Source of the DNA: Aerococcus urinaehominis
Lineage (GTDB): Bacteria > Bacillota > Bacilli > Lactobacillales > Aerococcaceae
Direction: 5' to 3'
Assembly: GCF_001543245.1 (NCBI RefSeq)
Contig: NZ_CP014163.1
Coordinates: 1,767,401-1,831,400, forward strand
DNA: 64,000 nt
Shown one piece after another: positions 11,149-24,348 of the stretch. Made by a program: the position numbers and the translations under genes. The first letter of the stretch is position 1; each line of letters begins with the position of its first letter. The notes beneath the pieces are model-generated. The model worked only from the letters and a program-made list of their open reading frames with translations, did not search any database and was not told where the DNA came from.

Positions 11149-11376
11149 ATGTCAGTAGTATCTCTTAGATTAAATGAAGAAGAGGAAAAGCTTTTTAAAG
11201 GGTATTCTCAGCAGACGGGTAAAACGCTCTCAGAACTTTTTAAAACTGCACTGGCAGAAGAAATTGAAACGGAGCTAGATTATGAAATAGGCGTGCAGGC
11301 ACTAGAAGCTTATCGCCAAGATCCTGTTTCTAGCTCAATAGGTGAGTTTATTAAGGAATTGGAAAACGACCTATAG
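11149..11376 (+). CDS. relB: RelB-type antitoxin
   Basis: 75 residues. The N-terminus SVVSLRLNEEEEKLF followed by a TGKTLSELFKTALAEEIE helix is typical of ribbon-helix-helix RelB/DinJ-like (DUF6290) antitoxins, with an acidic toxin-binding tail. GGAAGGGGG precedes the ATG. The downstream toxin frame overlaps its end, as is usual for relBE operons. The antitoxin looks intact while the toxin is broken, so it may now be an orphan that only regulates itself or neutralises related toxins. Confidence 0.85.
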   Translation: MSVVSLRLNEEEEKLFKGYSQQTGKTLSELFKTALAEEIETELDYEIGVQALEAYRQDPVSSSIGEFIKELENDL

Positions 11377-11632
11377 CTTAGAATTATCTAAAACTGCAAT
11401 AAAGCAACTTCGTAAGATGAACCAGCATATTTCAATTATGTTAGTGAAAGCAAGGGTGAAGGAATTAGATGGTTTAGAGGACCCGCGTTCAAAAGGTAAG
11501 GCACTGTCTAGTCAGTTAAAAGGATTATGGCGCTATCGCGTTGGTCAATATCGTATTATCTGTGAGATATAGGATGATAAACTTATTGTGTTAGCCCTAT
11601 CGGTCGGTCATCGGAAAAATATTTATGAATGA
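11366..11632 (+). pseudogene. relE: RelE toxin gene with start-codon and nonsense lesions
   Basis: Read through, the frame gives TYSLELSKTAIKQLRKM at the N-terminus and LSVGHRKNIYE at the C-terminus, a full RelE-family mRNA interferase of about 88 residues. Two defects are visible. The codon where ATG is expected (11366-11368) is ACG, and codon TAG at 11570-11572 replaces what is probably CAG in CEIQDD. The premature stop removes the C-terminal strand carrying the GHRxxxY residues needed for catalysis. A GTG at 11342 could give a longer N-terminus, but the nonsense codon would still truncate the product. Confidence 0.75.
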
Positions 11633-11655
11633 GCTTGTTAGCTGGTATGATATGC

Positions 11656-11702
11656 CTCATAAGTAGTTACTTGTTTAAGTGTCTGCTTATGGGGGATTTT
11701 TT
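11656..11702 (+). terminator. Terminator after relBE
   Basis: Interrupted hairpin CATAAG...CTTATG (11658-11663 and 11686-11691) with an inner ACTT/AAGT stem, followed by a T-rich run. The rest of the gap to the xre promoter is AT-rich with nothing else recognised. Confidence 0.6.
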
Positions 11703-11885
11703 ATATTAATATTAGATTAAATATTTAAATTTATTTTTTCAATACCCCAGTTTAATGACTTTAGGTGGTTTTGAGCTTGTTGCATTAAGTAATTTCTGGA
11801 GAAAGTAATATTACAGTTAGTTAAATATTTTAAATAATGTCAAAATTATTTGATAGTAATTTTTCGTTTTATGAATTATAGTTAA

Positions 11886-11903
11886 TTTAATATTTGTTAT
11901 AAT
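11886..11903 (+). promoter_or_regulatory. xre promoter with extended -10, possible Cascade target
   Basis: TGTTATAAT (11895-11903) is an extended -10 element; the -35 region is weak. AGGAGG follows at 11917. Bases 11886-11901 match 14 of the first 16 bases of the short spacer-like segment at 12164, and are preceded by AA. The match may be chance in AT-rich DNA. Confidence 0.5.
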
Positions 11904-11929
11904 GATTTTAGAAGGCTAGGAGGAATGAC

Positions 11930-12097
11930 ATGCATTTAGGCGACAAGCTGAGATCGCTCAGAAAGTCAAATGGATATAGCCAGGAGGAAATAGCAGAAAA
12001 GTTAAATGTTTCCAGGCAAACAGTTTCTAATTGGGAGAATTTTAAATCCCAACCTAGGGCTAATCAACTTTATGAATTTATCAAGTTGAAAGCGTGA
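11930..12097 (+). CDS. Small Xre-family HTH regulator next to the cas operon
   Basis: 55 residues: a complete HTH of the Cro/CI type (LRSLRKSNGYSQEEIAEKLN then VSRQTVSNWEN), and almost nothing after it. Related Xre proteins usually continue with more helices or a second domain, so this is either a minimal repressor or a truncated one. AGGAGG lies seven bases before the ATG and an extended -10 promoter just upstream. It is the only gene between relBE and cas3 and is co-directional, so a role in cas control is plausible but unproven. Confidence 0.75.
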   Translation: MHLGDKLRSLRKSNGYSQEEIAEKLNVSRQTVSNWENFKSQPRANQLYEFIKLKA

Positions 12098-12135
12098 CCA
12101 GTTGTTGAGATAATAGATATGTAAGAAATATTTTA

Positions 12136-12214
12136 TTTATGCCCGCGCTAGCGGGCGTGATCCTTTAATTTTTGTGATAGAAGGATTTCATACCTGCGTT
12201 AGCAGGGGTTTTCC
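12136..12214 (+). ncRNA. CRISPR-repeat-like pair before cas3, CreR-like candidate
   Basis: Two degenerate copies of the array repeat. The first (12136-12163) has CCCGC-GCTA-GCGGG and ends in GTGATCC: the stem and the seven-base 5' handle match the array repeat, with changes only in the loop and one base after the stem. The second (12187-12214) has CCTGC-GTTA-GCAGG, a compensated stem, and ends GGTTTTCC. Between them are 23 bases. A possible promoter, TTGAGA (12105-12110) with TATTTT (12129-12134), would start transcription near 12141, at the first stem. In CreR-type systems a repeat-short spacer-repeat RNA guides Cascade to repress the cas promoter. That role here is inferred. Confidence 0.6.
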
Positions 12215-12235
12215 AAGCTTGATGAGAAGGGGGAG

Positions 12236-14998
12236 ATGGTTATTTATACAGTAGCGCAGCCTTTTTGGGCAAAAAAACAGGATAGTGATGGTATATACCA
12301 ATGGTTACCACTGGGACAACATCTTGAAGATGCTAGGCAGGTCAGCGGCCTATTATGGGAGCACTGGCTTTCCAAGGGGCAGAGACAGGTCATCATATCA
12401 AATTTATCACCAGCGGATGCAGGTACTGGCAGGTGTCTAGCCGAATTTCTCGGCGCAGTCCACGACTTGGCCAAGGCAACTCCTGCCTTCCAAGTGAAAA
12501 GGGGCTATACTAACACGCCAGATTTAGACAGTTTTTTAATTGAGGAACTAGAACACTTTGGTTACAAAGGCTTGTCTTTAAAAGACCTACCGAGCGCTTC
12601 AAAGTCACCTCATGCCAAAGCAGGTCAAGTCCTGCTTGAAGTTTTTGGGGTTAACAGAGATATTGCTTCAATTATTGGCGGACACCATGGTCGCCCTCTT
12701 GATAATGAGAATGAGATAAAGGACCAAAAAGCCTACGACAGTAACTATTTTCAGGAAAGTAAGGGTAATATCCATGAACTCTGGCAAGACCAGCAAAAAA
12801 AGATTTTAGACCGTGCCTTAGAACTGTCAGGTTTTGCTTCGGTAGATGAGTTGCCTACTATTAGGCAGCAAGGCCAAGTGCTTTTATCAGGATTACTGAT
12901 TATGGCAGACTGGATTGCCAGTAACCCTAGCTATTTCCCCTTGCTAGAAATTGATCAAAGCCAGGAAATTGATCAAAGTGAACGTGCACAAAATGGTTTT
13001 CAGAAATGGTTTGCCACCTATCCTATAGAATTTGAAACAAAGACCAGTGAATACCTTTTTAGAGAGCGGTTTAAATTTAAACAAGCGCGAGAAGTTCAAG
13101 AAAAGTTTGTTGAAACCATTGCCTCATGTGAAGAACCGGGTATCTTTATTTTAGAAGCCCCCATGGGACTCGGTAAGACTGAGGCTGCCCTGGCTGGAGC
13201 TGAATTACTAGCAGCTAAAACTGGTCGGAGTGGTGTCTTCTTCGGTCTCCCAACCCAGGCAACCTCAGATGGGATTTTCCCCCGCATTGAAGATTGGTTA
13301 GAAAAGATTAGTGCGGACTATGATGATAAGGTATCCCTTCAGTTAGTTCACGGAAAATCCGCTCTAAATCCAAACTTCCAAAATTTAGCCAAACAAGTTG
13401 ATATCGATAATGAAGAAAGCTTGGTGGCATCGGTCCAGGTAAATCAATGGTTCAGGGGACGGAAAACTTCCAATTTAGATGACTTTGTCGTCGGTACCGT
13501 CGACCAATTTTTGATGCTGGCCCTAAAGCAAAAACACCTGGCCTTAAGGCACCTGGGTTTTAGTAAAAAAGTGGTTATCATTGATGAAGTTCATGCCTAT
13601 GATGCTTATATGAATCAGTATTTACATCGGGCTTTGGAGTGGATGGGAACCTATCAAGTGCCAGTCATTATTTTATCGGCTACCCTGCCAGCTAAAAGTC
13701 GCTGGCAACTAGCCCATGCCTATCTCAAGGGTAAAGGTATTAATAGAAAAGAAGTTAAAAGACTGAAAGAGTATTTGCTATATGACGATTACCCATTAAT
13801 TACTTATACGGACGGTAAGCAACTGGTACAAGAGGCTGACTTTAAACCAGCAAAAAAAATTACAAATGTAGTGGTTAATCAGATTCAGGATGAAGAATTG
13901 CTACTATTATTAGATAGTTGGATGGAGGGGTCGGGTAACATTGGGATTATTGTCAATACCGTCCGCCGGGCCCAAGAATTAGGTAAGCAATGTGTCGAAC
14001 GCTATGGTGAGGATATGGTTGATATTCTCCATTCATCATTTATAGCGACCGACCGAAAAGCTAAAGAACAACAACTGATGGCAAGCATCGGTAAAGAAGG
14101 TAATCGGCCTGATCGCCATATTTATATCGGCACACAGGTTATGGAGCAGTCACTGGATATCGATTTTGATGTTCTGGTAACCGATTTAGCTCCAATGGAT
14201 CTTTTAATTCAAAGGATTGGCCGCTTACACCGCCATGACCGACCAGACAGACCAGCAGCTCATAAATTGCCGTGTGTTTATGTATTGGGTACTAGCCCAG
14301 ACTTTGAATTTGAACCAGGTAGTGCCGCTGTTTATAGAGACTACCTACTAATTAGAACCCAGGCATGTTTACCTGAAAAGATTAACCTGCCGACTGATAT
14401 TTCACCCCTAGTGCAAAAGGTCTACGATGAATCGCTAGTATTTGAATTTGAAAATAATCAAGACCACTACGATAAAGCTAGTACAGACTACCAACAATTA
14501 TTAACTAGAAAAGAAAAAGGGGCACAAACCTATCGATTGAGTCCGCCGCCAAGTAAGCATAGAAATATCATTGGTTGGCTGAGCGGCACTAACCCCAATA
14601 CAAGTGAAGAATATGGTTATGCCCAGGTCAGAGATAGTGATGAAAGTATTGAGGTGATTTTGCTGAAAAGACATGGTCAAGGATACAGTCTTTTCAATGA
14701 AGATGAAGATATTTCCGCAGCAATTGAAGATGCTGGTATTGCTAAAGCCATGGCACAGGAAACCATCAAATTACCTGGTGCTTTGAGTCGGAATTATAAT
14801 ATCGATACTACCATCAAGCAATTGGAGGAGGATTATAATAAATATTTATCTAATTGGGACAAGCAACCCTGGCTTAAGGGTCAACTGGGACTAATTCTTG
14901 ACGAGCAAGGTTACTATCGCTTAGGAGAATTTATATTAAGTTACACCAAAAAATACGGTTTAGAGATGAGAAAGGAAGGGACAGATGAGTCGGTATAA
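12236..14998 (+). CDS. cas3: Cas3 nuclease-helicase, type I-E
   Basis: 920 residues. Cas3 is recruited by target-bound Cascade and degrades DNA with its HD nuclease while translocating with its helicase. The HD domain shows AVHDLAKA (His76-Asp77) and GGHHGRP near 148. The helicase shows Walker A GLGKTEAALAG (about 308), DEVH in IIDEVHAYD (about 445), SATLPAKSR (about 480) and motif VI QRIGRLHRHDRP (about 658). The ATG follows GAAGGGGGAG. Its 3' end overlaps cas8e by 14 bases. All catalytic motifs look intact. Confidence 0.97.
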   Translation: MVIYTVAQPFWAKKQDSDGIYQWLPLGQHLEDARQVSGLLWEHWLSKGQRQVIISNLSPADAGTGRCLAEFLGAVHDLAKATPAFQVKRGYTNTPDLDSFLIEELEHFGYKGLSLKDLPSASKSPHAKAGQVLLEVFGVNRDIASIIGGHHGRPLDNENEIKDQKAYDSNYFQESKGNIHELWQDQQKKILDRALELSGFASVDELPTIRQQGQVLLSGLLIMADWIASNPSYFPLLEIDQSQEIDQSERAQNGFQKWFATYPIEFETKTSEYLFRERFKFKQAREVQEKFVETIASCEEPGIFILEAPMGLGKTEAALAGAELLAAKTGRSGVFFGLPTQATSDGIFPRIEDWLEKISADYDDKVSLQLVHGKSALNPNFQNLAKQVDIDNEESLVASVQVNQWFRGRKTSNLDDFVVGTVDQFLMLALKQKHLALRHLGFSKKVVIIDEVHAYDAYMNQYLHRALEWMGTYQVPVIILSATLPAKSRWQLAHAYLKGKGINRKEVKRLKEYLLYDDYPLITYTDGKQLVQEADFKPAKKITNVVVNQIQDEELLLLLDSWMEGSGNIGIIVNTVRRAQELGKQCVERYGEDMVDILHSSFIATDRKAKEQQLMASIGKEGNRPDRHIYIGTQVMEQSLDIDFDVLVTDLAPMDLLIQRIGRLHRHDRPDRPAAHKLPCVYVLGTSPDFEFEPGSAAVYRDYLLIRTQACLPEKINLPTDISPLVQKVYDESLVFEFENNQDHYDKASTDYQQLLTRKEKGAQTYRLSPPPSKHRNIIGWLSGTNPNTSEEYGYAQVRDSDESIEVILLKRHGQGYSLFNEDEDISAAIEDAGIAKAMAQETIKLPGALSRNYNIDTTIKQLEEDYNKYLSNWDKQPWLKGQLGLILDEQGYYRLGEFILSYTKKYGLEMRKEGTDESV

Positions 14999-16670
14999 TT
15001 TGGTTGATGAGTACTGGATTCCAGTAATTGTTGATGACAAAGGGCATAGCCAAATGGTTTCTTTGCTTGATGTTTTTACTAATGGCTCTCAATATTTGCA
15101 ATTAGCGGGTGATACCCAGACCCAAAATTTTGCAGTTTTTCGACTATTATTAGCTGTTTTACAGACCGCCTTGTTGCGATACGAGTTAGATGGTGAAATA
15201 CGGGAGTTTCCTGATGAAGACTGGGGCTATGAGGATATTGACGACCTAGAAGAAGAACTAAATAATACATGGCTAGAAATCTGGCAGAATGAGTCTTTTC
15301 CAAAAATTGTGGTAGATTATCTAGAAGCATGGCGGGACCGTTTTTATCTTTTTGATGATAAGTATCCCTTTTACCAGGTTACAGCTAGTGATATTGATGC
15401 CAGCAAAATATCTAAAAAGCAAGCAAGTTCAATTTCTGGTAAGAATATTAACCGGATGATTTCGGAAAGTGGCAATAAAATTGCTCTCTTCTCACCTAAA
15501 TTTGCTGCATCGAATAATAAGGAAATTCTTGCTGAAGATGAAATTGCTCGTTGGTTAATTACCTTCCAAGGATACACCGGTTTATCAGATAAAGTAATAT
15601 TCGGGAGTGAAAAGTATAAATCATCAAAGGGCTGGCTCTTTGATATTGGTGGTCTCTATGTAGAGGGTAATAACTTGTTTGAAAGCTTAACGCTGAACTG
15701 TATACTGTTGCACCCGGATGAAAAATATCGCTTCAATCCACCCAAACCATGCTGGGAATTTGAGCCACAAGCCCGTATTCAGCGATATTTTGAGACAGAT
15801 TCGCCAGATAACTTAGCGGAGTTGTATACGAATTGGAGTCGTGGGATTTATATTGATCCCGATATAGATGCCACTAAAGCTTTTGAGTGCCAAATTGTAA
15901 AACTACCTGATATAAAACATGAAGACCAGTTTCTAGAGCCAATGACCCTGTGGCGGCACAATGATACCGGTCCTAGTAAAAATAAATTTACGCCTAGAAA
16001 ACATCAGGCTAATCAATCCATTTGGCGGTCCTTTGGTTTAATTGCCTTGCCAACCTATTATTCTGATAAGCAGCGGCAACCTGGTATCATAGCCTGGTTA
16101 AATTACCTTACACCATTGATAGGGGACCGGAGATTAACTATTTGCTCGGTGAGCATGGCTGATGATGGTAACGCAACATCTTGGGTGCCCGTGGATGAGC
16201 TTTGTGACCAGTTGAAAATTGATGACTTTGTCTTAACTGATGTTCAAGAAAATCATTGGGTGCCGAGGATTTATGATACAGTTGAAACAACCAAGCGGGT
16301 AGTGGGTCTTACATTCCGTAATTTCTTACTTGACCTGAAAGAGATTCGTAATCTAGCTACTAATGATTTTGTTAATGAACGGGTTACTGAGCTTTATTAC
16401 CATATTGATGAACCTTTTAGAGACTGGCTTATAAGTATAGATAAAGACGAGGACAAAGATAAAAAAGTGATTGAGTGGTATGATCAATTAGCTTGCTTGG
16501 TTAGACAACAAGTAGACCACTTGTTAAAACAAGCTGGACCAAGAGACTATACTGGCATCATTAAAAACAAAAAAGATGATAAAGATAGTAAAATATTAAA
16601 TATCGCAATCGCCCACAATAAATTTACTTACTATTTAAATAAGGAATTAAAGGAGGGAAGACATGACTAA
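14985..16670 (+). CDS. cas8e: Cas8e (Cse1/CasA), Cascade large subunit
   Basis: 561 residues. Cas8e recognises the PAM and recruits Cas3. N-terminus YNLVDEYWIPVI is typical of Cse1 proteins, as is the long alpha-beta body with FQGYTGLSDK and the four-helix C-terminal bundle. Position between cas3 and cas11 confirms the call. The ATG lies inside the cas3 3' end. It overlaps cas11 by 8 bases. Large-subunit sequences diverge fast, so individual PAM-contact residues cannot be assigned by eye. Confidence 0.95.
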   Translation: MSRYNLVDEYWIPVIVDDKGHSQMVSLLDVFTNGSQYLQLAGDTQTQNFAVFRLLLAVLQTALLRYELDGEIREFPDEDWGYEDIDDLEEELNNTWLEIWQNESFPKIVVDYLEAWRDRFYLFDDKYPFYQVTASDIDASKISKKQASSISGKNINRMISESGNKIALFSPKFAASNNKEILAEDEIARWLITFQGYTGLSDKVIFGSEKYKSSKGWLFDIGGLYVEGNNLFESLTLNCILLHPDEKYRFNPPKPCWEFEPQARIQRYFETDSPDNLAELYTNWSRGIYIDPDIDATKAFECQIVKLPDIKHEDQFLEPMTLWRHNDTGPSKNKFTPRKHQANQSIWRSFGLIALPTYYSDKQRQPGIIAWLNYLTPLIGDRRLTICSVSMADDGNATSWVPVDELCDQLKIDDFVLTDVQENHWVPRIYDTVETTKRVVGLTFRNFLLDLKEIRNLATNDFVNERVTELYYHIDEPFRDWLISIDKDEDKDKKVIEWYDQLACLVRQQVDHLLKQAGPRDYTGIIKNKKDDKDSKILNIAIAHNKFTYYLNKELKEGRHD

Positions 16671-17259
16671 AAATAATTTAAGACTTAGCCAAGTCGCAGG
16701 ACAATTAACTAAGCGGCTAGATAGCCAATTAGGAACACCTTCAGGCAAGGCTTTGCTAGCTAATTTGCGGAACTCAATGGGCCGATCCCTGAGTGAAACT
16801 ACTGAAGTCTGGCCGCTTATGTATGAGGTGCTGCCAGAAGAGTATCTTGGTCAAAGCTACCAGCTAACTAATGAAGAAGAAGCCATACTAACCATGATGC
16901 AGCTATACGCCTTGTACCATCAAGGTCAGGATAGCCCTTTATCCAGTTACGAAAATAAGACTAATTTTGGTGAATCATTAGCAACACTAAGAGGAGATAA
17001 AGACACTGTGTCCATTGATCGCCGCTTCAATGCCTTGATTACTGCTACCAGCTATGATGAATTTAACCACCATTTAAGGCAGCTATTGCGCTTGCTTAAA
17101 TCACGCACCAAGGGCACAGTCAAAATAAATTTTGCTAAGCTATGTCAAGATTTGTATTGGTTTAGCAGAGGTTACGAAGAAAAAGTTCGTTTGTCATGGG
17201 CTAAAGCCTACTATAGTCAAGCTAGAAATAAAGGAGATAAAAATGATGAAGCAAAATAA
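16663..17259 (+). CDS. cas11: Cas11e (Cse2/CasB), Cascade small subunit
   Basis: 198 residues, mainly helical, the usual length of Cse2. Two copies form the belly of Cascade and hold the non-target strand. The pattern SLSETTEVWPLMYEVLPEEY and the basic C-terminal helix (SYDEFNHHLRQLLRLLKSR then WFSRGYEEKVRLSWAKAYY) fit the family. Start ATG at 16663 overlaps cas8e; the end overlaps the cas7 start by 17 bases. Confidence 0.94.
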   Translation: MTKNNLRLSQVAGQLTKRLDSQLGTPSGKALLANLRNSMGRSLSETTEVWPLMYEVLPEEYLGQSYQLTNEEEAILTMMQLYALYHQGQDSPLSSYENKTNFGESLATLRGDKDTVSIDRRFNALITATSYDEFNHHLRQLLRLLKSRTKGTVKINFAKLCQDLYWFSRGYEEKVRLSWAKAYYSQARNKGDKNDEAK

Positions 17260-18328
17260 ATTATTTATTGATATCCATGCCATTCAAACCGTTCCACCAT
17301 CTAATATAAACCGTGACGATACTGGTAGTCCGAAAACTGCCCAGTATGGCGGTGTCAGAAGGGCACGGGTTAGTTCTCAATCCTGGAAACGAGCTATGAG
17401 AGCTTACTTCAATGAATACGGCGCGCTAGATAATGTTGGGGTGAGATCTTTAGATATTGTCAACTATGTCGCTGATAAGATTCAAAGTCTCGATCCTAAA
17501 TGTGAAGAGGAATTAGCGCTTGAAAAGGCAGAAAAAGTGATTAATGATGCGGGAATTAAAACTAAGGACCATAAAGCGCGTGCACTATTTTTCTTAGGAG
17601 ATGTTCAAGCTGAGCAATTAGCTAAAGCAGCTCTTGCGGGAGAAGCCGATAAGAAAGTTTTGAAAGGCTATTTAAAAGATAATCCAGCCATTGATATCGC
17701 CTTGTTTGGTCGCATGGTGGCTGATGACCCGTCATTAAACGAGGATGCATCATCACAAGTAGCTCATGCGATTTCAACTCATGCCGTACAAACTGAATTT
17801 GATTTTTATACCGCTGTTGATGACCTAGCACCTGAAGACAACGCGGGAGCTGGTATGTTAGGGACGATTGAATTTAATTCATCGACTCTTTATCGCTATG
17901 CTAATATTGCTGGCCATGAATTACTAAAGCAATTGGGTCATCCAGATGTAACCGTTAAAACAATCAATTTATTTATTAAAGCCTTTTTCAATTCAATGCC
18001 GACAGGAAAAGTTAATACTTTTGCCAATCAAACCCTGCCGGAAGCCGTGCTCGTGACTATCAGACCCGATCGGCCGGTAAACTTAGTGACAGCTTTCGAA
18101 AAACCAGTTAAAAGCCGGGATGGCCATGTTACTGAATCCATGACTCGCCTATTAGAAGAAAATAAGCAAGTACAAAAGTTTGTTGAACCTCCTCTAGCTG
18201 CTTATTGGCTGACGCTTGAAGACAGTGAAATTGCTAGTGAGGGCGTTAAAACAACCAGAGATTTGAACGACCTCTTAACACGTGTCGGTGAAGAGCTAGA
18301 AACAGCTATTAATGAAACGGGTGTTTAA
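17243..18328 (+). CDS. cas7: Cas7e (Cse4/CasC), Cascade backbone
   Basis: 361 residues. Six copies coat the crRNA spacer. The N-terminus LFIDIHAIQTVPPSNINRDD and GGVRRARVSSQSWKRAMR are hallmarks. The start is ATG 17243 or 17246, just after AGGAGATAA; an upstream in-frame ATG at 17132 would sit deep inside cas11 and is rejected. Domain order and length match the family with no lesion seen. Confidence 0.96.
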   Translation: MMKQNKLFIDIHAIQTVPPSNINRDDTGSPKTAQYGGVRRARVSSQSWKRAMRAYFNEYGALDNVGVRSLDIVNYVADKIQSLDPKCEEELALEKAEKVINDAGIKTKDHKARALFFLGDVQAEQLAKAALAGEADKKVLKGYLKDNPAIDIALFGRMVADDPSLNEDASSQVAHAISTHAVQTEFDFYTAVDDLAPEDNAGAGMLGTIEFNSSTLYRYANIAGHELLKQLGHPDVTVKTINLFIKAFFNSMPTGKVNTFANQTLPEAVLVTIRPDRPVNLVTAFEKPVKSRDGHVTESMTRLLEENKQVQKFVEPPLAAYWLTLEDSEIASEGVKTTRDLNDLLTRVGEELETAINETGV

Positions 18329-19028
18329 GGTGAAGACGATACTCCTGAAATTTGCCGGTCCCCTGCAATCTTGGGGGACCCGGTCAAATTTTGAAACACG
18401 ACATACAGATTGTTATCCTTCAAAGAGTGGCGTAATTGGCTTAATCGCAGCTAGTATGGGACTTAAGCGTGATAGTTCAGATATCAAAGCCTTAAATGAC
18501 ATCGATTTTGCTGTCCGCATTGACCAACCGGGTAATCTAATCAGGGACTATCACACAGCCAAAAAATATAAAAAAACGGGTGACTTGGACAGAACCTATG
18601 TCACCAACCGCTATTATCTAGAAGATGCTGTCTTTGTTGTGGCTATTAGCCAAACAGAGGACCTAGTAGATAAAATTTTAACAGCCCTAAAACAACCTTA
18701 TTATCAAGCTTATATGGGAAGAAGAGCGCTACCTTTACCAGCAGATTTTATTATGGGGGTTTATGACGGCGATGCCATTTCTTGTCTAAAAGACTGTCCA
18801 TGGCAAGCGGCCTCCTGGTATCATAAAACCCCGGTAAAAAAATTAACGGCTTATGCTGATAGCCATTTAGTTGACCAAGGGCAAAAAAACCTGCGTAAGG
18901 ACGGAGTCGAATCATTCAGTCAAAAAAATCGTTCTTTTAGTTTTAGGTATGAAACACGATTCGAAATTATTTTGCCTGCTGCAGATGAAAGACCAGACCA
19001 TGATGCCTTTTCAGCCTTAGGAGGTTAG
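18312..19028 (+). CDS. cas5: Cas5e (CasD), Cascade subunit capping the crRNA 5' handle
   Basis: 238 residues. Cas5e binds the 5' handle of the crRNA. The RAMP start ILLKFAGPLQSWGTRSNFE and SKSGVIGLIAASMG are diagnostic. The ATG at 18312 lies in the cas7 3' end; a GTG at 18330 would give the more typical start VKTILLKFAGPL, and neither has a clear Shine-Dalgarno, so the exact start is uncertain. Confidence 0.94.
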   Translation: MKRVFKVKTILLKFAGPLQSWGTRSNFETRHTDCYPSKSGVIGLIAASMGLKRDSSDIKALNDIDFAVRIDQPGNLIRDYHTAKKYKKTGDLDRTYVTNRYYLEDAVFVVAISQTEDLVDKILTALKQPYYQAYMGRRALPLPADFIMGVYDGDAISCLKDCPWQAASWYHKTPVKKLTAYADSHLVDQGQKNLRKDGVESFSQKNRSFSFRYETRFEIILPAADERPDHDAFSALGG

Positions 19029-19029
19029 T

Positions 19030-20614
<1,585 letters not shown>

Positions 20615-20620
20615 TTCCTT

Positions 20621-21532
20621 ATGCCTTTAACAGTAATTACCATGAAAAATGCGCCAGCCTCGTTGCGTGGTGACTTATCAAAGTGGATGCAGGAGATTGC
20701 TACTGGCGTCTATGTGGGTAATTTTAATAGTAGAATCAGAGAGCAGATTTGGAATAGGGTAATTGAAAGTGTTGGAAATGGCGAAGCTACCATGTCTTAT
20801 TCATATCGGAATGAAATCGGCTACCAATTTGCTACTCATAATACCAATAGGCAAGTCGTTGATTATGACGGTATTCCTCTAGTCCAAATCCCAATTGAGG
20901 CAAAGGCTGAGCCGAAGAGGCCTAAAAAAGGATTTAGTGTTGCTGCTAAAAATCATCAAGCGCGTTTGGGTCAAAGAAAACAAGCTACTACTAAACCGCT
21001 AGTTATCTTTGATATTGAAACAACTGGTTTAAACGAAAAGCGAGATCAAATTATCGAAATTGCTGCAGTTAAAATTCATGAGGCTAGTATCGAGCCTTTT
21101 CATAGGCTGGTCAATGTTGACAAGCAAATACCAGCTGCTATAACAGATTTAACAGGTATAACTAACCAGATACTGTCTGATGAAGGGGTCAGTATTGCTA
21201 GCGCTATTCAAGATTTTAAACTATTCATAGAAAATACAGTTTTAGTCGGCTATAACATCAATTTTGATCTTAAATTTATCAATGCCTATTTAAATGCTAG
21301 CCAACAGCCAGTGTTTAATAATAAAACGCAGGATTTAATGAAGATTGTTAAAAAAGATAATATGTTTTTAAATAACTATAAATTACCTACTGTACTTAAG
21401 AGTTATGATATCATGGATGAGGTTGTACACCGGGCCCAGGAGGATGTAGTCTTGTATCTCAAACTAATGAGCAAACTAAATAAATTTGATCATTTGAATA
21501 TTGAGAAGCTTGATTTGGATGGGATCTTTTAG
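20621..21532 (+). CDS. cas2: Cas2e fused to a DnaQ-like DEDDh exonuclease
   Basis: 303 residues against about 95 for plain Cas2e. Residues 1-93 are Cas2e (TVITMKNAPASLRGDLSKWM, ending near PLVQIPIE). A basic linker follows (about 94-126). Residues 127-290 are a DnaQ-type 3'-5' exonuclease with all four acids and the histidine of DEDDh: DIETTGL, GYNINFDLKF, and HRAQEDV. In Streptococcus thermophilus type I-E the same fusion is known to trim prespacers before integration. The CRISPR array begins one base after the stop, so the adaptation leader must overlap this 3' end. Confidence 0.95.
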   Translation: MPLTVITMKNAPASLRGDLSKWMQEIATGVYVGNFNSRIREQIWNRVIESVGNGEATMSYSYRNEIGYQFATHNTNRQVVDYDGIPLVQIPIEAKAEPKRPKKGFSVAAKNHQARLGQRKQATTKPLVIFDIETTGLNEKRDQIIEIAAVKIHEASIEPFHRLVNVDKQIPAAITDLTGITNQILSDEGVSIASAIQDFKLFIENTVLVGYNINFDLKFINAYLNASQQPVFNNKTQDLMKIVKKDNMFLNNYKLPTVLKSYDIMDEVVHRAQEDVVLYLKLMSKLNKFDHLNIEKLDLDGIF

Positions 21533-21533
21533 T

Positions 21534-23085
21534 CTTCTTCCCGCATACGCGGGGGTGATCCCAAAGGGATTAAGCCCTTGTGCTTTGCATAGTTCTTCTT
21601 CCCGCATACGCGGGGGTGATCCTGTATAAGTTTCGCCTTTTTTTACATCCGCTATCTTCTTCCCGCATACGCGGGGGTGATCCCTGGGCTCTAGCATAGA
21701 CAGTCTGCCAGCTGATCTTCTTCCCGCATACGCGGGGGTGATCCTGAGCTTATCAGCGGGATTGCTATAGAAAAAGTCTTCTTCCCGCATACGCGGGGGT
21801 GATCCCTGAGAAAACGTCACGGCCAACTTAAAGAGTACCTTCTTCCCGCATACGCGGGGGTGATTCTACGAGGGTAGCACGCTCAATATATCTAATATTC
21901 TTCTTCCCGCATACGCGGGGGTGATCCTGCCATTCCACACGCCGTCAATGATTTCTCTGACTTCTTCCCGCATACGCGGGGGTGATCCCGATAGACAGAC
22001 AGCACCCTGACGCCGAAAAAACTTCTTCCCGCATACGCGGGGGTGATCCTGCCATTCCACACGCCGTCAATGATTTCTCTGACTTCTTCCCGCATACGCG
22101 GGGGTGATCCTTAGGTCGGTATCTAATACCGGTGCATTCTCAACTTCTTCCCGCATACGCGGGGGTGATCCTCTCTACATAATTCTTTGACCTCTTCTAA
22201 AATACTTCTTCCCGCATACGCGGGGGTGATCCCGATAACCCTAATCAAATCATGGCATCAATCAGCTTCTTCCCGCATACGCGGGGGTGATCCCGGGGTA
22301 GCAATCCAATCAGCAGGCAAGCTAGGCTTCTTCCCGCATACGCGGGGGTGATCCTAATCAAGCCCCAGTCGCAGTGACTGAGGAAGTCTTCTTCCCGCAT
22401 ACGCGGGGGTGATCCCTATAGCCATGACTGAGTACCTGGAACGTATGCCTTCTTCCCGCATACGCGGGGGTGATCCCAGGAGGAAGCTGACAATGAAAAT
22501 TAAAGTCCGCTTCTTCCCGCATACGCGGGGGTGATCCTCTGCTCTTTGAAAAAACCACTAGTAACCATTTCTTCTTCCCGCATACGCGGGGGTGATCCCT
22601 TAACTTCGCTTTGCATACGTACCTCCTAAAACTTCTTCCCGCATACGCGGGGGTGATCCTTTAGCAGGGTCTTCATTACCCATCATACCATCTTCTTCCC
22701 GCATACGCGGGGGTGATCCTAGCATGTTTGCCTTTAAATTTGCCAAAAGTAACTTCTTCCCGCATACGCGGGGGTGATCCCAGTGAGTTATCTCGGTAAC
22801 TATCATCATAGACCTTCTTCCCGCATACGCGGGGGTGATCCCTTAACGCAAAAAGAAGTAGCCGAGAGAGCAAACTTCTTCCCGCATACGCGGGGGGTGA
22901 TCCCGATTTTCCAAGTTCTTTGATACCTTCATCATTCTTCTTCCCGCATACGCGGGGGTAATCCCTAATTACGCATGGACGTAACGGTCGAATCAGGCTT
23001 CTTCCCGCATACGCGGGGGTGATCCTGTCGCTAAATTTAATTTTTTTATTAAAAGAACTTCTTCTCGCACACGCGGACGTGATTC
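21534..23085 (+). CRISPR. Type I-E CRISPR array, 26 repeats and 25 spacers
   Basis: 28-base repeats begin CTTCTT, form a CCCGC-ATAC-GCGGG hairpin and end GGTGATCC; period 61 (33-base spacers; two of 32). Repeat starts: 21534, 21595, 21656, 21717, 21778, 21839, 21900, 21961, 22022, 22083, 22144, 22205, 22266, 22327, 22388, 22449, 22510, 22571, 22632, 22692, 22753, 22814, 22875, 22937, 22998, 23058. Variants: the sixth ends GATTC, the 23rd has one extra G, the 24th has GTAATCC, and the last (23058-23085) is strongly degenerate, marking the trailer end. Spacers 7 (21928-21960) and 9 (22050-22082) are identical. Every spacer begins with C or T. The handle side and the decay at the right end show transcription on the plus strand. 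Confidence 0.98.
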
Positions 23086-23214: not shown

Positions 23215-23382
23215 ATGGCTACAACAAGTTTTACTAAAAATTTTAAAGTGAGCGGACAAAAAAGTGAATCTTTTGTTAAAATAATGACCACCCGTCCTAA
23301 AAAATCTATCGATACCCAGTTTAAGTCTAAGCGTACAAGTGTATTAGATAGAAAAGATTTACTAAGGAAAGCATTAACCTAA
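23215..23382 (+). CDS. Small basic protein paired with GNAT, putative antitoxin
   Basis: 55 residues from the ATG at 23215, which is preceded by AAGGAGG; an upstream ATG at 23110 lies before this site. Rich in Lys and Arg (KIMTTRPKKSID then RTSVLDRKDLLRKALT) with no obvious fold. Its stop is immediately followed by the GTG of the GNAT gene, the compact layout of a GNAT toxin and its antitoxin. Sequence family not recognised. Confidence 0.6.
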   Translation: MATTSFTKNFKVSGQKSESFVKIMTTRPKKSIDTQFKSKRTSVLDRKDLLRKALT

Positions 23383-23973
23383 GTGATTGAATATGAAGTT
23401 TATCCCTTATCTGACTTGTTATCCGCTGACAAAGCAGATATAGATGTAGAAAAATTAAAGGTTTCCATGTCCTCTTTTAAGTGTAGGAGAGAAGTAGATA
23501 TGGAAACCTTTTTGAGTTCGAAAGCAATCACATATGATAATTCGGCAATAGGAAGAACGTTTTTGATTGTAGATAAATATGAATTGGATAAAGGTAATTT
23601 TGTTATTGCCGGTTTTTATACCATAGCGATTACAACTGTAAATATTGAAGCATTGAGTGCTAATCAAAAGAAAAAGCTATTAGGTAATATTCCAAATAGG
23701 AATAGCTTAAAAAATGCGCCTGCTTTATTAATAGGACAAATTGGTAGAAATGATAATTATTCGCACGATGATTTGCCAGGTGTGGTAATTCTTAATGAAT
23801 GCTATTCAGACTTAAGACGAGCTCAGCAAATTACAGGTGGTCGCATATTAATATTAGAATGTCGAAAAGAAACATTTGAAAAGTTTTATTCTCATCAAGG
23901 ATTTAAGAAGTTTTACGATACTTCTGACGATCATAGTCTATATACTGTATATAAAAATTTTAAGCCAAATTAA
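23383..23973 (+). CDS. GNAT-family acetyltransferase, toxin-antitoxin-like
   Basis: 196 residues starting with GTG directly after the stop of the 55-residue protein. The order of segments fits GNAT: FLIVDKYELDKGNFVIAGFY (beta4-like), a substrate loop with LLIGQIGRNDNYSH, then ILECRKETFEKFYSHQGFKKF near the C-terminus, the part that binds acetyl-CoA and closes the fold. Toxins of this layout acetylate aminoacyl-tRNA, but chromosomal GNATs with other roles look alike. AT-rich, between the array and an orphan CRISPR repeat. Confidence 0.65.
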   Translation: MIEYEVYPLSDLLSADKADIDVEKLKVSMSSFKCRREVDMETFLSSKAITYDNSAIGRTFLIVDKYELDKGNFVIAGFYTIAITTVNIEALSANQKKKLLGNIPNRNSLKNAPALLIGQIGRNDNYSHDDLPGVVILNECYSDLRRAQQITGGRILILECRKETFEKFYSHQGFKKFYDTSDDHSLYTVYKNFKPN

Positions 23974-24320: not shown

Positions 24321-24348
24321 CTTCTTCCCGCACACGCGGGGGCGATTC
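24321..24348 (+). CRISPR. Orphan CRISPR repeat, 1.2 kb beyond the array
   Basis: A 28-base match to the repeat with CCCGC-ACAC-GCGGG and end GGCGATTC, three differences from consensus. No second repeat follows within 33 bases. The degenerate last repeat at 23058 also has CACACGCGG and GATTC, so both look like parts of an old trailer, now split by the GNAT module. Confidence 0.75.

Follow-up and report, generated by a model that had tools for sequence, protein, structure and literature searches.

Two short sequences resembling CRISPR repeats stand directly ahead of cas3 in Aerococcus urinaehominis, and the question is what a pair of this kind does outside an array. The window, i.e. the whole stretch of DNA that was analysed, comprises 64,000 nucleotides and contains the following cas genes and array.

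12236-14998, + strand: cas3 (TIGR01587 and TIGR01596 above cut-off), with a possible alternative start ATT at 12242
14985-21532, + strand: cse1, cse2, cas7, cas5, cas6e, cas1 and cas2-dnaQ (type I-E NCBIfam models)
21534-23085, + strand: CRISPR array with 26 repeats of 28 nt, mostly at a 61-nt period

The type I-E operon with a Cas2-DnaQ fusion, as proposed by the first-pass annotation, was confirmed by NCBIfam/TIGR models. The gene set (Cse1, Cse2, Cas7e, Cas5e, Cas6e, Cas1e, Cas2e and Cas3) was present, and the last protein of the operon gave a match to the Cas2e model along with DnaQ-type matches. The array begins one base after the cas2-dnaQ stop (21530-21534) and thus has no separate leader; for its transcription, it may rely on the cas operon or on a sequence within cas2-dnaQ. 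A lone repeat, identical to the array repeat at 25 of 28 positions, is found at 24321-24348, about 1.2 kb beyond the array. Two toxin-antitoxin-like pairs were named by eye, one RelBE-like (11149-11572) before the cas locus and one acetyltransferase-like (23217-23973) after the array.

The repeat pair upstream of cas3 consists of the following parts.

12136-12163, + strand: psiR1, a degenerate repeat with the stem CCCGC-GCTA-GCGGG and the 5' handle GTGATCC
12164-12186, + strand: pseudo-spacer of 23 nt between psiR1 and psiR2
12165-12186, + strand: guide of 22 nt, with 12164 as PAM-derived 29th base
12187-12214, + strand: psiR2, a degenerate repeat with the stem-loop CCTGC-GTTA-GCAGG at 12193-12206 (GGTTTTCC)

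Both elements, their stems and the handle of psiR1 had been described in the first-pass annotation and were found as claimed, as was the 23-base gap (12164-12186) outside the array, with no third repeat nearby. psiR1 is identical to the array repeat at 20 of 28 positions, which is the top non-array match in the 64-kb window bar the lone repeat at 24321. In the whole genome, GCNNNNGCNNNNGTGATYC was located at 27 places, namely 24 array repeats, psiR1 and two unrelated sites, while its reversed control occurred nowhere. psiR2 ends 21 nt before the cas3 start. Its identity to the array repeat (17 of 28) is equalled at four other places in the 64-kb window and is within chance level, so that psiR2 rests on its stem, position and conservation, and the case for the element on the guide, the stems and the relatives. 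Two hairpin repeats with a resident handle are a feature of CreR; here, psiR1 carries the GTGATCC of the array and psiR2 has the stem without the handle. The predicted fold of the RNA 12121-12236 was stabler than 200 of 200 dinucleotide shuffles (z -3.1). In this fold, the 3' end of the guide is able to pair with the 5' handle (12160-12186), which might mask the free RNA prior to loading. Rfam gave no family at threshold over 11600-12400, the single match having an E-value of 0.61. The distance from the guide start to the psiR2 stem is 28 nt, where canonical repeats would give 38, and the guide is thus about 10 bases short; presumably, a short guide of this kind leads to a smaller Cascade.

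The guide start was set at 12165 because the base following each of the 26 array repeats is C or T, as expected of a 29th base derived from an AAY PAM. A predicted target of this guide, two promoter-like sites and a small gene were found upstream of the pair.

11884-11908, + strand: predicted CreR target, with the PAM AAT at 11884-11886 and the protospacer at 11887-11908
11895-11903, + strand: candidate promoter P1, an extended -10 element TGTTATAAT inside the target (consensus match, unmapped start)
11930-12097, + strand: gene of a 55-aa XRE/HTH_3 protein (Pfam PF01381, E=7.5e-13) with an AGGAGG ribosome site, the first gene after P1
12086-12114, + strand: P2, the candidate promoter of the element (TTGAAA-17-GATAAT, 10/12, TG before the -10)

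Compared with 11887-11901, located 278 bp upstream, the guide matches at positions 1-5, 7-11 and 13-15 (13/13) and is mismatched only at 6 and 12. The pattern of these 13 positions, TTAATNTTTGTNATA, occurs twice on both strands of the 1.83-Mb genome, as guide and as target, and its reversed control is absent. The bare 10-nt seed TTAATNTTTGT is frequent with 15 occurrences including guide and target (11 for the reversed control), and the seed alone is therefore no proof of a target; the chance that such a site falls less than 300 bases from the guide is approx. 0.005, as estimated from the genome seed count. The predicted target overlays the extended -10 element, which is followed by the AGGAGG and the 55-codon HTH gene. 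It thereby has the limited seed-type complementarity beside a PAM in a cas-locus promoter that is typical of CreR, the promoter being assigned by consensus only. Neither the 26 array guides nor the lone repeat at 24321 had an AA-PAM seed match within the 64-kb window. As the array gave no megablast match to the phage collection, the evidence for the PAM comes from the targets and from the base that follows each repeat. In a haloarchaeal CreA, each of positions 1-5 and 7-11 was sensitive to change whereas 6 and 12 were not (PMC8501985), and the window guide follows the same rule.

P1 has a poor -35 and was absent from a stricter promoter scan. Its core TTGTTATA is conserved in two other Aerococcus genomes, and its counterpart in locus L003 reads TTGAAA-17-TATAGT (10/12). 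P2 was the best promoter-like site, and its segment TGAGATAATAG is identical in L003 and L004. A predicted start near 12121 follows from P2, so that the transcription start near 12141 given by the first-pass annotation was not supported. The scan returned 6 sites compared to 3.2 (sd 1.6) in shuffles and serves only as a guide. psiR1 itself scored as terminator-like, and read-through into cas3 could therefore be limited; no other terminator-like site was detected between the HTH gene and cas3. P1 heads the order hth-creR-cas3, and P2, located between P1 and cas3, could also serve cas3, which may hence be read from a promoter that is not targeted by the guide. psiR2 and cas3 are only 21 bases apart; a cas3 mRNA begun at P1 or P2 would therefore include the element, and Cas6e could cleave it ahead of cas3. 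That P1 rather than P2 supplies the cas3 mRNA is the least sure step of the model.

Such pairs were then sought upstream of cas3 in other genomes. Counting the genome of the window each time, a Cas3 match was obtained in 5 of 15 genomes from the genus, in 14 of 76 from the family (five weak) and, at a stricter limit, in 31 of 395 sampled from the order; a Cas3 scan of named genomes gave no match. A Cas1 alignment provided 80 named loci, the best 80 of 482. Together with the window, 20 regions and 10 earlier loci, these formed a pool of 111, from which weak matches and the partial second cas3 of genome G001 (L007) had been left out. cas3 was present in 108 loci, and 98 were screened after removal of nine exact duplicates and one locus lacking upstream DNA. 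A target had to show a full seed match and an AA PAM and to lie in the stretch from 900 bases ahead of the cas3 start to 120 bases behind it. A hairpin, handle and guide with a seed-complete target were found in 19 of the 98 cas3 loci, the window included, and no full-seed element was found in the other 79. The arrangement recurs upstream of cas3 in further species, where both the guides and the targets are different ones.

The loose element rule alone was unspecific, with at least one candidate in 72 of 98 loci, and a still looser first scan matched 34 of 640 simulated regions. Under the strict rule, 47 candidates remained in 40 loci, 17 of them with a target; L044 and L053, which belong to the 19, drop from this set via the array filter. 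In the controls of the strict set, 4 of 4559 tests of a guide on another locus and 3 of 4700 shuffled guides scored. All 19 PAMs were AAY (7 AAT, 12 AAC) while the filter demanded AA only. Guide and target matched at position 6 in 7 of 19 loci, at position 12 in 3 and at position 13 in 18. A promoter-like site (loose rule) was overlapped by 14 of 19 targets compared to 1413 of 3800 random spots. The 19 loci are partly dependent, since L039 and L040 have one guide and L044 and L045 belong to one genome. Named loci comprise Peptoniphilus duerdenii (L076), Kallipyga massiliensis (L095), Mogibacterium pumilum (L097), Kineothrix alysoides (L125) and Lentilactobacillus rapi (L137), whilst the record of L064 is titled Prevotellaceae MAG. 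We take the named species carrying elements to be Firmicutes.

Thirty of the 47 strict candidates had no full-seed target, and several of these resemble real repeat pairs (L046, L047, L055, L056, L121 and four actinobacterial loci). The best local target matched 8 of 10 seed positions in L046 and in L056, 9 of 10 with an AAC PAM in L047 and 9 of 10 with an AAT PAM, in the register used, in L121. In L055, sites with 9 of 10 lie 300-460 bases ahead of the element, and L134 reached 8 of 10 in a shifted register only. L089, L099, L115 and L117 (Gardnerella, Arcanobacterium) showed no seed target in the screened region; they have a repeat-guide-repeat 210-217 bases before cas3 with nearly the same guide, and the target may be elsewhere. 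In L052, a second AAC-PAM seed-complete match of the guide of L030/L052 lies beyond the array, about 12124 bases after the cas3 start, while the other precedes creR.

The screened loci also showed a peculiarity of cas3 itself. In five of the 98 (L039, L040, L044, L045 and L079), no ATG, GTG or TTG was found between the in-frame stop and a conserved Trp, and ATT (ATC in L079) stands 8-9 codons before this Trp, by eye behind a ribosome-site-like stretch. The window cas3 has an ATG 10 codons and an ATT 8 codons ahead of the Trp. AUU is a possible start codon of Cas3, judging from these reading frames.

The target lies between the element and cas3 in 8 of the 19 loci, 44-154 nt before cas3, and upstream of the element in 11. 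Among the latter, the gap between target and guide is 36-72 nt with no ribosome-site ORF between in L052, L064, L066, L082 and L097, and 139-210 nt in L044, L045 and L125; target and guide are separated by the HTH gene in the window, L003 and L004. The survey of ORFs in this gap took in 10 of the 11 loci, and L040/L004 come from separate comparisons. With the target beside creR or cas3 in 8 + 5 loci, the promoter of creR and cas appears as the natural target. From guide start to psiR2 stem, 10 of the 19 loci have 36-39 nt and L041 has 35, while the remaining 8, with the window among them, have 21-28; the stems differ in length by one or two bases.

L003 and L004 align with the window at the promoter core, the HTH gene, P2 and psiR2 (CCTGCGTTAGCAGGGGTT, identical). 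Their guide and target differ from those of the window, and the target lies downstream of the -10 and not over it. As the promoter is kept and guide and target have changed, it is the relation that is conserved and not the sequence. An HTH_3 gene is at the same place in L003, with a near-identical counterpart in L004; in genome G000, the HTH gene at this place is the sole match to the L003 protein at an E-value of 1e-6 or better.

The stems, whose lack of conservation in relatives with the same cas operon was among the refuting conditions of the first-pass annotation, did covary. In 12 psiR1 sequences, all 60 of 60 cells pair and two-sided changes occurred in 4 of 5 pairs, amounting to 13 cells versus a shuffle value of 4.0, and none of 500 shuffles came as high; with 7, further pair types were no more numerous than in the shuffles (7.5). 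This set comprised the 12 of 19 sequences with 28 nt and a loop of 4 nt at the usual position; L040, which is identical to L039, was left out along with six others that differ by loop size or stem register. Given the fact that the sequences were picked partly for their hairpin, the pairing of 100% is by construction, but which bases pair is not.

CreR, a cas-regulating RNA, is reportedly the subject of a paper by Liu et al. in Cell Host Microbe in 2023. According to later papers, it is a CRISPR-like RNA with limited complementarity to the promoter of its own cas locus (PMC12737573, PMC13131331, PMC12948488) and accounts for autorepression in types I-B, I-E and V-A (PMC13131331; CreR also in PMC12737573 and PMC12948488). 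The window element has the same properties, and most likely it is a CreR-type autorepressor, i.e. a new example of an already described type I-E regulator. With a probability of roughly 0.85, we read it as a type I-E CreR whose 22-nt guide, loaded into Cascade, would block P1 and lower HTH and Cas. The CreR-like reading of the first-pass annotation was strengthened by the unique PAM-flanked seed target and the recurring arrangement, but the targeted P1 precedes the 55-codon HTH gene and not cas3 directly. In the same respect, the window differs from CreR as described in later papers: the first gene read from P1 codes for a small HTH protein, and the element is located between this gene and cas3.

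We infer the following course from the sequence. The mini-CRISPR RNA would be transcribed and cut by Cas6e at psiR1 and psiR2 to a crRNA-like RNA with the 22-nt guide. Loaded into Cascade, this RNA would bind the AAT-flanked 11887-11908 through positions 1-5, 7-11 and 13-15, and Cascade at the target would block RNA polymerase at P1, with a pairing that is probably too small for Cas3 cleavage. As P1 would head the unit hth-creR-cas3-cas, repression would lower HTH and, by read-through, Cas production. Repression would be relieved when Cascade is lost, saturated or inhibited; of a CreR, one would expect repression that depends on Cascade and is lifted by crRNAs or anti-CRISPRs.

The HTH gene might instead be the main target of CreR. 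Cascade-CreR would then silence P1, CreR and Cas would be made from P2, and upon loss or inhibition of Cascade the HTH protein would appear and change cas or another target. P1 directly before a gene with a good ribosome site, the conserved P2-like promoter ahead of the element in L003 and L004, the terminator-like score of psiR1, and the HTH gene in three Aerococcus genomes, with its sole G000 match to the L003 protein, speak for it. It would also fit CrePA, in which a cas-adjacent protein gene is subject to Cascade-guided repression, although CreP is a toxin and the window gene codes for an XRE-type HTH protein (PMC12737573). However, the eight other upstream-target loci have no ribosome-site ORF between, bar one of 12 codons in L125, the remaining eight have the target just before cas3, and no terminator-like site besides psiR1 separates HTH and cas3. 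HTH proteins of this kind are moreover common (33 of 76 family genomes match), so that the link between gene and element rests on synteny. We consider it unlikely that HTH is the main target, and likewise doubtful that an RNA-guided relay exists in this Aerococcus lineage, in which Cascade-CreR would act on cas by way of a dedicated small HTH regulator or jointly with it.

Far less probable is an addiction pair of the CreTA type, with the element as antitoxin RNA CreA and a target promoter for a small toxic RNA whose mini-ORF has rare codons. The two degenerate repeats with a guide, the seed rule (1-5/7-11, with 6 and 12 free) and the promoter target do resemble CreA (PMC8501985, PMC9458426). 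The examples described there are haloarchaeal and their target drives a toxic RNA, but no such toxin is seen in the window. Ribosome-site ORFs (at least 5/6) between target and guide are the HTH gene and the 4-codon MTCI near the HTH start, which is without tandem rare codons, and 8 of the 19 loci have their target between creR and cas3. CreTA was rejected since a toxin-like mini-ORF with rare codons was lacking among these ORFs. A functionless relic of a degraded array would account for degenerate repeats, a short spacer and the missing third repeat, but it is very improbable, and the compensated, covarying stems together with the PAM-flanked seed match over a promoter led to its rejection; the recurrence with other guides in other species also speaks against it. 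Equally improbable are two DNA dyads as protein operators or terminator/attenuator hairpins before cas3, since they fit the terminator-like score of psiR1 but leave the handle, the guide-target match and the relatives unexplained.

The CreR reading gives a guess made on the bare letters the form of a precise prediction that can be tested, in which guide, PAM, target and promoter are named. Judging from 19 of 98 loci, type I-E cas3 is preceded by CreR-like elements in many species, mostly Firmicutes, whose guides are unrelated. A guide changes along with its target while the seed and PAM rule stays, and this offers a simple way to find such elements. An HTH gene between target and guide was not found described in titles and abstract openings of the literature on Aerococcus and type I-E cas, and this arrangement may or may not have been described elsewhere. 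The Aerococcus form adds a co-targeted regulator gene, and the loop could be a two-layer circuit; if the relay were true, loss or inhibition of Cascade would switch on a transcription factor, beyond mere derepression of cas. In Aerococcus urinaehominis, the defence machinery is probably able to limit its own production by means of this element.
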